64,000 bases of DNA from NCBI RefSeq assembly GCF_002214525.1, contig NZ_CP015104.1:372001-436000 (forward strand), written 5' to 3'. The notes under the pieces are model-generated. The model was not told where the DNA came from. It did no database searches and worked only from the letters and a program-made list of their open reading frames with translations. This stretch comes from Thermococcus sp. P6. Its GTDB lineage: Archaea > Methanobacteriota_B > Thermococci > Thermococcales > Thermococcaceae. A program made the translations under genes and the position numbers. Positions 43,058 to 46,424 of this stretch are shown piece by piece (position 1 is the first letter of the stretch; each line of letters begins with the position of its first letter).

Positions 43058-43826
43058 TGCCCCGTTCCAGAATCTTTTTCTCAGCCAGCCGGAGTATCTC
43101 GAACCTCAGTTCCCGTGGCAGGTAGCGGTAACCTCCTATCCTCTCACCCCTCTCGTACAGCGGCCAGAGCCTCTCCATCAGTTCAGGAAGCCGGGCGAAG
43201 AGGCGCTTTTTTGAGTCGGGCCTGAGCTTGAGCGTTGAAACGGTCACGTGCTCAACGAAGTCGAGCGCATCGAGGGTTTCCTCGAAGTCCTCCCACGTGT
43301 AGAAAGGGATTATCGGGTCGATCCGGGCGTAAACGGGTATGCCCATCTCCCGGGCCTTCCGGAGGGCCCTTATTCTTTTCTCCGGAGCCGGAGCATTGGG
43401 TTCCAGTATCTTTGCCTTCCTCCCGTCCACGGTGGTGACGGTTATCCCGACGGCGCACCTGAGCTCGCTAAGCACATCCAGATCCCGCTCGAAGATGTCC
43501 GACTTGGTGAGTATCATGCACCTCACGTCGTACCTCCTGAAGAGTTCCAGAACCCTGCGGGTTATCCCCAGCTCCCTCTCCACGGTCGGATAGGGGTCGG
43601 AGGAGTAGGAGAGGGCCACCACGTACCTCCTGTCCAACCGCCGCAGTTCCCTCTCCAGCCCCGGCAGGAGGCCTTCCTTGGTCCTGACCCTGAAAGCCCG
43701 GGGAATGTAGGAGGTTATGTAACAGTAGAGGCAGGCGTGGTCGCAACCCGTGTAAACGTTCAGCGTGTATTTAAAGGGACAGGTGCAGAGTTTTGACCTC
43801 CACGGATCGAAGGGTCGTATGTACAT
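42984..43826 (-). CDS. Radical SAM protein (SPL/COG1533 type)
   Basis: 4Fe-4S SAM enzyme of 280 residues with the cluster motif CDHACLYC (Cys28, Cys32, Cys35) after VYTGC, and the family's C-terminal FGSCREGYRSFPSCDGS. Relatives include spore photoproduct lyase-like proteins; the substrate is unknown. A TATA on the minus strand (centred at 43852) is 26 bases from ATG 43826, so the mRNA is probably leaderless. Confidence 0.85.
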   Translation of the reverse strand: MYIRPFDPWRSKLCTCPFKYTLNVYTGCDHACLYCYITSYIPRAFRVRTKEGLLPGLERELRRLDRRYVVALSYSSDPYPTVERELGITRRVLELFRRYDVRCMILTKSDIFERDLDVLSELRCAVGITVTTVDGRKAKILEPNAPAPEKRIRALRKAREMGIPVYARIDPIIPFYTWEDFEETLDALDFVEHVTVSTLKLRPDSKKRLFARLPELMERLWPLYERGERIGGYRYLPRELRFEILRLAEKKILERGITFGSCREGYRSFPSCDGSHLVPL

Positions 43827-43845
43827 GACTAAAGTTCCCAAAAGG

Positions 43846-43857
43846 CATTTAAAAAAG
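43846..43857. promoter_or_regulatory. Shared bidirectional TATA element
   Basis: CATTTAAAAAAG reads as a TATA box on both strands. It is about 25 bases from the radical SAM start (minus) and from the leader of the OsmC gene (plus). One TBP site may serve both, or two start complexes compete. Confidence 0.5.
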
Positions 43858-43884
43858 ATAATGCAAGTTCATGTGGGTGGTAGA

Positions 43885-44295
43885 ATGAGCGATGAGGTAA
43901 GGGGAACGGTTGAGTGGTTCAAAGACATGCAGTTTATAGGGAGGATCGAAGGCGATAAGTGCTCCGTAATTCTGGGTGAGGGTGGAATAAGTCCCATGAA
44001 GCTCCTGCTTCTAAGCGTGGCCGGATGCACGGCTTACGACGTTGTTATGATACTCCAGAAGATGCGCGAGCCCATAAAAGGGCTTGAAGTTGAAATAAGC
44101 GGGGAGCGCCGTGATGAGCATCCCAGAATTTACAAGAGGGTTAATCTGCACTACAGGATTTACGGGGATGTGGATGAGGAGAAGGCGGAGCGTGCCATAA
44201 AACTGAGCCAGGATAAATACTGCTCGGCCTCCGCCCATGTAAAGCTCAGCGGTGCCGAGGTTACCTACTCCTTTGAAATAACCGGTGATTCGTAA
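43885..44295 (+). CDS. OsmC family protein
   Basis: Thiol peroxidase-fold protein of 136 residues. The peroxidatic Cys48 in LLSVAGCTAYDV and Cys113 in DKYCSASAHV are in place; GGEGGISPMKLLLLS is the conserved segment. It may reduce organic peroxides. GGGTGGTAGA precedes ATG 43885; the frame is open upstream but overlaps the divergent gene. Confidence 0.88.
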   Translation: MSDEVRGTVEWFKDMQFIGRIEGDKCSVILGEGGISPMKLLLLSVAGCTAYDVVMILQKMREPIKGLEVEISGERRDEHPRIYKRVNLHYRIYGDVDEEKAERAIKLSQDKYCSASAHVKLSGAEVTYSFEITGDS

Positions 44296-44315: not shown

Positions 44316-44957
44316 TTGATCGAGTACCTGAAGTATTTCATCATGGTGTACGGCGGTCTGTTTGCGATAACCAACCCCGTGGGGGCCGTTCCGGTCTTTC
44401 TCAGCGTTACCCACAACCTGAGCTGGAAGGAGAGGCACGAGATAGCGAGGAAGACCGCTCTGGTTGTGGTGATCACGCTGACCCTCTTCGCACTCCTCGG
44501 GGAGTGGATATTCCGGTTCTTCGGTTCGAGCGTTAACGCCTTCGCAATAGCCGGAGGGATACTGCTCTTCAAGATGGCCATGGAGATGCTCTCGGGGAAG
44601 GTATCCACCGTAAAGATAAGCAGCGAGGAGACCGAGGAGCTTGGAGAGGAGGTCGTTACACTGGAAGAAGTTGCGATAACACCCCTCGCGATACCCCTCA
44701 TCTCCGGTCCGGGCGCTATAACCACCGTAATGCTCTACATGGGGAACAGTCACGGGGTCCCGGAAAAGGCCGTCGTTATGGCGGGCGTTCTCGCGATAGG
44801 CCTTACGGTCTGGCTTGTCCTCTGGTCCTCCAGAGGAATACAGATGAGACTCGGAAGGACAGGCATAAAGGTCCTGACGAGGATGATGGGTCTGATACTC
44901 ACCTCGATGGCCGTCCAGATGGTCATCAACGGGATAAAGGGGGCCTTCGGGCTTTAG
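44316..44957 (+). CDS. snatA: MarC-family transporter, SnatA-like
   Basis: Membrane protein of 213 residues with six helices. The MarC motif GGLFAITNPVGAVPVFLSVT and ITPLAIPLISGPGAITTVM are present. A Thermococcus member of this family transports small neutral amino acids (SnatA), which is the best guess. The start is TTG 44316, after GGGAAGTGATAAC. The encapsulin-like gene follows after 35 bases. Confidence 0.85.
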   Translation: MIEYLKYFIMVYGGLFAITNPVGAVPVFLSVTHNLSWKERHEIARKTALVVVITLTLFALLGEWIFRFFGSSVNAFAIAGGILLFKMAMEMLSGKVSTVKISSEETEELGEEVVTLEEVAITPLAIPLISGPGAITTVMLYMGNSHGVPEKAVVMAGVLAIGLTVWLVLWSSRGIQMRLGRTGIKVLTRMMGLILTSMAVQMVINGIKGAFGL

Positions 44958-44962
44958 GGAAA

Positions 44963-44970
44963 GCTTAATA
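44963..44970 (+). promoter_or_regulatory. TATA box of the encapsulin-like gene
   Basis: GCTTAATA with GGGAAA BRE, centred about 26 bases before GTG 44993. The transcript would be leaderless and independent of snatA. Confidence 0.55.
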
Positions 44971-44992
44971 GCATGGAGGCCAAGGGGTTACG

Positions 44993-45283
44993 GTGGTGGA
45001 AGTGAGGGGTGATCTGATCCGCGTTCTGAGCACGGTGGAGGAGAAGGCCAACGAGCTGAAGCTTGAAGGTTACGAGCCCGATGTTCTTTTAATCGGGAAG
45101 AAGGCCTACGAGTTCGTGAAGGAGCAGCTCAACGAAGAGTTTGGAGAGGGAGACGAGGTTCTCGAGCTGTCCGGGTTCAGGGTGCGCGTGGTTGAAGAAC
45201 TGGAAGGTGACGCTGTTGTAATCGACAGCAGGGTCATCGGCCTCGGGTCGGGTGGGGCGAAGAGGTTCAGGGTGATTCAATAA
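44993..45283 (+). CDS. Single-domain (Family 4, A-domain) encapsulin-like protein
   Basis: Protein of 96 residues. It reads RGDLIRVLSTVEEKANELKLEGYEPD, ending GDAVVIDSRVIGLGSGGAKRFRVIQ. This closely follows, from memory, a P. furiosus structural-genomics protein (2PK8) later classed as a Family 4 encapsulin: only the A-domain of the HK97 capsid fold. Whether it forms a shell or a small ring is unknown. Its start is GTG 44993 or 44996. The 3' end overlaps the convergent CitG-like gene by 17 bases. Confidence 0.78.
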   Translation: MVEVRGDLIRVLSTVEEKANELKLEGYEPDVLLIGKKAYEFVKEQLNEEFGEGDEVLELSGFRVRVVEELEGDAVVIDSRVIGLGSGGAKRFRVIQ

Positions 45284-46193
45284 CTCCCCACGCCCTTCCC
45301 TCCCTCATCTCAATCCTCAGCCCCCTGAGAACGAGAAGGCTAAGCGAGACGGCCATCACGTCCGCAAGACTGCCCGGGTTTCTCAGATCGCCCTTTTCCC
45401 TCATGAACGAATCGAACTCCTCAACGCCCATCTCTCCTTTGAGGACCTTCCGGGCCTTATCCCGAACGAGTTTGGCCTCACCGGGACCGGCCTTCCTGAT
45501 TATCAGGGTGTCGAGGTTCTCGCTCAGAAGCTCGATGAATGCTCTCACAACGGCATCCTCCAGCGGAAGTACCTTTATCAGGCCGTAGAGCCTTTCAAAG
45601 GTGGCGTAGCTCAGGTTGTAGCCGTTGAGCCACTCGCAGAAAATCAGCTCCCTCTCACAGCTTATCTCCGCGAGCCTCGCGAGGTTTATTCCGTCCTGAA
45701 AGAGCTCCCTGAAGGATTCGTCGCTGTAAACGTCGTACCTAACCCCGGCCTGAACGCCCTTCGGGTTTGCAATCCTTATCGCGCGGTAAAGCTCTATCGT
45801 GTCGCGAACCGTCGATTCTTTAATCAGGAGCCCCGCCTTTTCCCGGGCTTCGAGCATGTTCCTTCCGATGGCCATCCCCATGATCAGCGGGATCGAGAGG
45901 GTCACGACACCGAAGTTCGGGTTCGCATCCTGAGCCTCACGTGAGGACTGGACTGCCCTTCGTATGAGCTCCCCCATCCCGGCCTCCCTGAAGGAGAGGA
46001 GTCCCCTCCGTATCAGTTCCGCGGTCTTCACCGCCTCGTAGTAGATGCCCACAACGGCGGTATCCCCGAACAGAAAGTTGTACACGCTCAGGTCGTCGAA
46101 GTCCGCATAGCGGTTCACGTTACCCGGCTTTGGAACGACCACCTCGAGCAGGGGTCCAAGGATGAACGCTCTCACGATCCTCCAGCGGTCCAT
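45267..46193 (-). CDS. CitG/MdcB-like triphosphoribosyl-dephospho-CoA synthase family protein
   Basis: Protein of 308 residues. VVVPKPGNVNRYADFDD, NPNFGVVTLSIPLIMG and the late KGDLRNPGSLADVMAVSLSL are the family motifs. Bacterial members make the citrate-lyase/malonate-decarboxylase prosthetic group precursor; no such acyl carrier is seen here, so the product is open. It is followed upstream by a small membrane gene with no gap. Confidence 0.82.
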   Translation of the reverse strand: MDRWRIVRAFILGPLLEVVVPKPGNVNRYADFDDLSVYNFLFGDTAVVGIYYEAVKTAELIRRGLLSFREAGMGELIRRAVQSSREAQDANPNFGVVTLSIPLIMGMAIGRNMLEAREKAGLLIKESTVRDTIELYRAIRIANPKGVQAGVRYDVYSDESFRELFQDGINLARLAEISCERELIFCEWLNGYNLSYATFERLYGLIKVLPLEDAVVRAFIELLSENLDTLIIRKAGPGEAKLVRDKARKVLKGEMGVEEFDSFMREKGDLRNPGSLADVMAVSLSLLVLRGLRIEMREGRAWGVIESP

Positions 46194-46424
46194 TCACACC
46201 ACCAGATAGAGGATGAGATAAATCAGGTAAAGGACCTTCACAACCCTTCTGAAGGTCCCTCTCGCGAGGAGGTAGGCCCCGAAGGCCACCAGAGTAACCC
46301 CCCAGAAAGCGTTTTTTATGTAGCTCCTATAGGGGGAAAGCCACCCAAGGAACGAAGGGTGGAACTCCCTCAGTAACAGGAGGAAGCCTAAGAGCACAAG
46401 AACCCAGCCGATGGTTCTCACCAT
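46194..46424 (-). CDS. Small membrane protein, unknown
   Basis: Protein of 76 residues with three hydrophobic segments (about 4-20, 38-54, 60-76). It ends exactly where the CitG-like gene begins, so the two are co-translated. No family recognised. Start ATG 46424 lies after GGAGGGATC. Confidence 0.65.
   Translation of the reverse strand: MVRTIGWVLVLLGFLLLLREFHPSFLGWLSPYRSYIKNAFWGVTLVAFGAYLLARGTFRRVVKVLYLIYLILYLVV

Follow-up and report, generated by a model that had tools for sequence, protein, structure and literature searches.

A Family 4A A-domain encapsulin-like gene of Thermococcus sp. P6 and its conserved promoter in the Thermococcaceae

We have analyzed a stretch of 64,000 nucleotides (the window) from the genome of Thermococcus sp. 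P6, a single contig of 1.52 Mb whose relatives are the Thermococcaceae. Almost certainly, one gene in it is the single Family 4A A-domain encapsulin-like gene of this genome (4A from here on), the ortholog of PF0899 of Pyrococcus furiosus, the protein of structure 2PK8. It is a gene of a known kind, the standard Thermococcus copy of a family described by Andreas & Giessen (2021; PMC8346489), one of whose operon types has the order OsmC-MarC-A-domain protein. These authors stated that the function "remains speculative" (PMC8346489), and no later experimental study was found in the literature searched. The survey of 73 related loci showed that the promoter of 4A stays while the upstream gene varies. 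Our preferred reading, to which we give a nearly even chance of being right, is a free-standing protein that serves as an oligomeric scaffold or in the manner of a chaperone, and not a cargo-filled shell.

Identity, coding sequence and predicted fold

The 4A protein scored 154.4 bits with the NCBIfam model encap_f4a (NF041190, cut-off 90) and 98.8 bits with Pfam PF08967 (ENCP4, cut-off 31.4), and well under the cut-off with the NCBIfam models of Families 4B (40.5 bits, cut-off 90) and 4C (24.1 bits). Its only clear solved relative was 2PK8 (E 5e-26). These two models, the match to 2PK8 and the fold bear out the placement in Family 4 and the relationship to 2PK8 that the initial annotation had proposed. 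The gene agrees with the published OsmC operon type (PMC8346489) in curated model, length class, gene order, taxon and in the presence of one 4A and one 4B gene, as is general in Pyrococcus and Thermococcus (PMC8346489). The second and last PF08967 gene of the genome is the 4B paralog (G000:C1:841028-841258; L103:5478-5780, minus strand), which lies behind DeoC and overlaps it by 23 nt.

The initial annotation had taken as the gene a GTG-initiated open reading frame of 96 codons on the forward strand (44993-45283). This frame is intact, and the comparison with 34 ungapped relatives gave 599, 365 and 1688 differences at codon positions 1, 2 and 3, respectively; the alignment indicates that coding selection acts on it. 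Its start had to be moved. Among 73 orthologous loci, 68 of which start with ATG and five with GTG, the starts align with the GTG at 45002 (MRGDLIR...), with the exception of seven Pyrococcus-group loci that begin two codons earlier, and several relatives have in-frame stops between the aligned start and the position of 44993. For these reasons the coding sequence most likely begins at 45002 and has 93 codons instead of 96 (Table 1).

Table 1. Coordinates of the 4A gene, its signals and its neighbors in the window.
Feature	Coordinates	Strand	Evidence
OsmC-like protein, 136 aa, ATG after GGTGGT	43885-44295	+	PF02566, 61 bits; start from relatives
MarC/NAAT-family membrane protein	44316-44957	+	PF01914, 204 bits; TIGR00427, 210 bits
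BRE (AAA, 44960-44962) and TATA-like box (CTTAATA, 44964-44970)	44960-44970	+	Conserved position in 73 loci
Shine-Dalgarno motif GGTGGT, fits GGDGRD	44992-44997	+	GGTG conserved in 73 loci; motif as in PMC5316973
Three extra codons of the earlier frame, probably untranslated leader	44993-45001	+	Stops or no start codon in relatives; overlaps Shine-Dalgarno motif
Family 4A A-domain encapsulin-like protein, 93 aa	45002-45283	+	PF08967/NF041190; 2PK8; alignment of 73 relatives
CitG-like protein, convergent to 4A	45267-46193	-	PF01874, 160 bits
Small LiaI/LiaF-like membrane protein	46194-46424	-	PF18917, 27.4 bits against a cut-off of 27 (borderline)

An AlphaFold2 model built on a 40-sequence alignment (pLDDT 90.5, pTM 0.80) has the order of elements H-E-H-E-E-E, that is, the two helices and four-stranded sheet in about 100 residues (93 here) with the 2PK8/HK97 A-domain fold that define Family 4A. 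In Foldseek searches this model matched 2PK8 with an E value of 3.5e-11 and a TM score of 0.95 (49% identity over 92 columns). The matches that followed were weak singly (E 0.04-0.65, TM mostly 0.36-0.56) and overwhelmingly HK97-fold capsids and encapsulins, among them HK97 (TM 0.56) and the Thermotoga maritima encapsulin 3DKT (TM 0.53, 24% identity over 75 columns). A search of the predicted fold against 2PK8 and HK97 A-domains, the check proposed with the initial annotation, thus matched 2PK8 closely and HK97-fold proteins weakly, and an unrelated fold did not turn up. The topology held in common with HK97 gp5 and 3DKT covers about 75 residues (TM about 0.53-0.56) and is that of the A-domain. 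Unlike HK97-fold capsids and Family 1 encapsulins, the 93 residues span the A-domain only, with no P-domain, E-loop or N-arm, and they have no significant sequence similarity to those proteins. No capsid family of Pfam or PHROGs was matched in HMM searches with the 4A family, and no significant sequence relatives were found in viral contigs, phages or plasmids. The relationship to the A-domain thus rests on the predicted structure; sequence profiles do not reveal it. Searches with Pfam and NCBIfam found no catalytic or known ligand motif. The match to a PHROG "tail fiber protein" in eight of the 40 members (best value 2.5e-4), none for the window protein, was treated as uninformative.

Conservation is concentrated in helix 1 (residues 2-21): 14 of its 20 positions reach at least 90% identity, compared with 22 of the 73 positions in the rest of the protein (Fisher p 0.0018). 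Many of the conserved residues are charged (R2, R7, E13, E14, K15, E18 and K20). The alignment suggests that this nearly invariant N-terminal helix, specific to 4A, is a conserved contact surface, although its conservation could instead serve folding or self-assembly.

The initial annotation had judged such a gene unusual, a view that does not fit an already described family found throughout the Thermococcaceae. The 4A model scored above the cut-off in 88 of 94 genomes, including all 74 of good quality, over the six genera; in good-quality genomes of this family 4A is a universal single-copy core gene. Outside the Thermococcaceae, PF08967 matched none of the genomes listed for the phylum.

Promoter and neighborhood

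The BRE/TATA element of 4A in the window (AAAGCTTAATA) starts directly after the stop codon of MarC. When the DNA 5' of the 4A start was aligned over the 73 loci, an A-rich BRE appeared at -46 to -41, a TATA box at -38 to -32 with A/T in up to 95% of the loci, an A-rich pair at -20/-19 and the GGTG at -10 to -7. With a promoter matrix built from all relatives and a small shift allowed, the site was among the top 0.1% of window positions, the chance of such a match rising to roughly 0.5% because several offsets were tried. With a strict fixed-offset matrix trained on other genera only, the window site scored poorly because of a TATA displaced by 1-2 nt. In Thermococcus onnurineus the distance from TATA box to transcription start is about 27 nt, and 5' UTRs have a median length of 12 nt, with GGDGRD as the Shine-Dalgarno consensus (PMC5316973). 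On this spacing, transcription of 4A is predicted to start around 44992 with a leader of about 10 nt, and the mRNA would probably have a short leader with a Shine-Dalgarno motif. The leaderless mRNA that had been proposed was rejected, since the GTG at 44993 falls inside the conserved GGTGGT, 10 nt before the start at 45002, and the starts of the relatives lie 9 nt downstream of it.

This arrangement of BRE/TATA and Shine-Dalgarno motif was kept in the 73 loci under every upstream context: OsmC/MarC, MarC alone, an inserted gene, hydrogenase and opposite-strand genes. Three loci (L090, L091 and L101) have an opposite-strand gene directly upstream of 4A, which there needs a promoter of its own. 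The initial annotation had argued from the TATA box for separate regulation, and its conservation whatever the upstream gene strengthens that argument. The conserved promoter argues against dependence on transcription of the upstream enzyme gene, although read-through from MarC would still be compatible with it.

The same annotation had found no known cargo among the neighbors, overlooking OsmC; the gene order in the window is the published Family 4A type OsmC-MarC-4A (PMC8346489). The enzyme gene upstream that goes with Family 4A (OsmC or hydrogenase) is thus OsmC here, a linkage that is not universal in the relatives. The survey of neighboring genes that had been suggested for the Thermococcales was carried out by reading 73 Thermococcaceae loci in detail. 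Upstream of 4A there was OsmC(-MarC) in 38 loci, OsmC-MarC followed by an inserted gene (cluster C15) in 11, MarC without OsmC in nine, the hydrogenase alpha gene in six (immediately before 4A, in Pyrococcus-group genomes), a C58 gene in three and other arrangements in six. In 50 of the 73, OsmC lay upstream at a distance of no more than 3.6 kb. In contrast to the published OsmC type, the window and its relatives show an own promoter for 4A and an unstable linkage, so that an operon with OsmC is not established. The window also differs from P. furiosus PF0899, of the hydrogenase type, in having MarC and OsmC upstream, the sulfhydrogenase I alpha gene being about 605 kb away. In locus L101, where the 4A protein and 2PK8 share 98% identity, hydrogenase alpha and 4A are separated by four genes on the opposite strand. 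We take the hydrogenase genes of P. furiosus to be PF0891-PF0894, followed in number by PF0899, and the four-gene gap is consistent with this numbering.

The most stable neighbor was CitG, convergent with 4A in 64 of the 73 loci, which by itself does not imply a common function. The overlap already noticed in the window, between 4A and the convergent CitG-like gene, is real (17 nt, 45267-45283) and recurs in the relatives, with 17 nt in 41 loci and 11 nt in 18. Outside the Pyrococcus group, most Thermococcaceae retain an overlap of one of these two lengths. The C15 gene, of about 290 codons and inserted between MarC and 4A, codes for a membrane-anchored or secreted protein; insertions were seen in L033, L034, L037, L044, L046, L054, L057, L066, L078 and L080, with two copies in L066 and L078. 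The OsmC open frame of the window extends from 43765, 40 codons 5' of the conserved ATG and into the region of a divergent gene (43765-43884), and this mechanical start is probably wrong.

Possible roles of the 4A protein

In the reading that we prefer, 4A would be made from its own short-leader, Shine-Dalgarno-carrying mRNA, fold as an isolated HK97 A-domain and form a small open oligomer, either the dimer seen in crystals of 2PK8 or a five-fold facet. By its charged and nearly invariant N-terminal helix it may bind and stabilize soluble partner proteins in trans, and it would not be a closed shell loaded with OsmC. Judging from the model, with no P-domain or E-loop, such a shell is not an obvious product. 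A small oligomer binding soluble enzymes would resemble Family 4B, which is reported in PMC8346489 to associate with GAPDH in a stable complex in P. furiosus. Against a scaffold acting in trans stand the fact that this evidence of complex formation concerns the 4B paralog and the proximity of OsmC in 50 of the 73 loci, possibly a real link of 4A to OsmC in those lineages.

Andreas & Giessen suggested a peroxide-protection nanocompartment for the OsmC operon type (PMC8346489), and pentameric facets of 4A might close into a small shell around OsmC, with MarC perhaps nearby. The gene order of the window, the 50 loci with OsmC upstream and a fold that is the A-domain lining five-fold pores all agree with it; we nevertheless hold it to be improbable. 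A protein of 93 residues has neither P-domain nor E-loop for shell contacts, many species have lost or interrupted the linkage, and 4A is present in genome G011, where no OsmC ortholog was found (best match 28% identity). Linked OsmC has no added tail either: its C-terminal end is the same whether the gene is next to 4A (134-139 aa) or not (134-148 aa). OsmC was therefore rejected as a carrier of a targeting peptide and, as far as OsmC goes, the targeting peptide or extension expected of encapsulin cargo is not seen. 2PK8 crystallized as a dimer, which the authors of PMC8346489 consider a possible tag artefact. A search of the window's genome for Linocin_M18 (PF04454) found nothing, so that a Family 1 encapsulin as shell partner was ruled out. 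The main text of a T. kodakarensis interactome paper has no mention of encapsulin or OsmC.

The six Pyrococcus-group genomes with 4A right behind hydrogenase alpha could point to an ancestral arrangement in which 4A was an assembly or stability factor for the cytosolic hydrogenase (sulfhydrogenase I), acting now in trans where the genes have separated. The alpha subunit does occur in most genomes surveyed, the window's included, but this role also seems to us a poor prospect. With orthologs taken at 76% identity or more, none was found in the complete genome G019 and only a 44% paralog in the complete genome G087, and both have 4A; moreover, the two genes are unlinked in L094 and separated by the four opposite-strand genes in the genome nearest 2PK8. 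In G033 the alpha gene looks split in two pieces (G033:C1:1964872-1966153) and 4A is intact. Finally, 4A might be a small protein of ligand binding or regulation that keeps the A-domain fold without a structural role. This would suit a core gene present once per genome, with a conserved promoter of its own and strongly conserved charged residues. We regard it as unlikely, given the lack of any catalytic or known ligand motif in Pfam and NCBIfam and the structural nature of the HK97-fold relatives.

The promoter is kept, the neighbors change and 4A outlasts the loss of hydrogenase or of OsmC in some complete genomes, so that naming its cargo from the operon is weak. The survey thus adds a reason to doubt the neighborhood as a guide to the cargo of 4A, which is kept where either published partner is missing. 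With T. kodakarensis and P. furiosus genetically tractable, what an isolated capsid domain does in the cell becomes a directly testable question.

Other A-domain-like proteins

The best viral structural match to 4A in BFVD (E 4.5e-4, TM 0.66) was A0A127AW84 of Bacillus phage SP-15, a protein of 128 aa. Only two annotated SP-15 proteins of 128 aa were seen, a putative membrane protein and SP15_096 (L121:44161-44547), and from length and motif the match is probably the latter. SP15_096 has the motif GYRPDTVILGEVEY, resembling GYEPDVVLLGKEAY of 4A, and aligned with the 4A profile by hhalign with a probability of 83% (E 9e-6). It sits in a replication and repair region, far from the capsid genes. 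Since it resembles 4A away from capsid genes, free-standing A-domain-like proteins may exist in phages. A wider view is possible but doubtful, in which 4A would not be an encapsulin bound to a cargo. It would instead descend from capsid proteins, be expressed on its own throughout the Thermococcaceae as a single domain and act on partners in trans, as one of a class of free-standing A-domains found also in phages outside the capsid cluster.

Family 4B (PF08967, NF041191), with its DeoC and GAPDH types, belongs to the same fold family as 4A. It differs in its curated model and in the overlap with DeoC, where 4A has its own promoter. The 4B paralog of this genome convergently overlaps a downstream membrane protein gene resembling a transporter component. 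This convergent neighbor recurs at the 4B loci L107, L109, L111 and L112, even with a different upstream gene.
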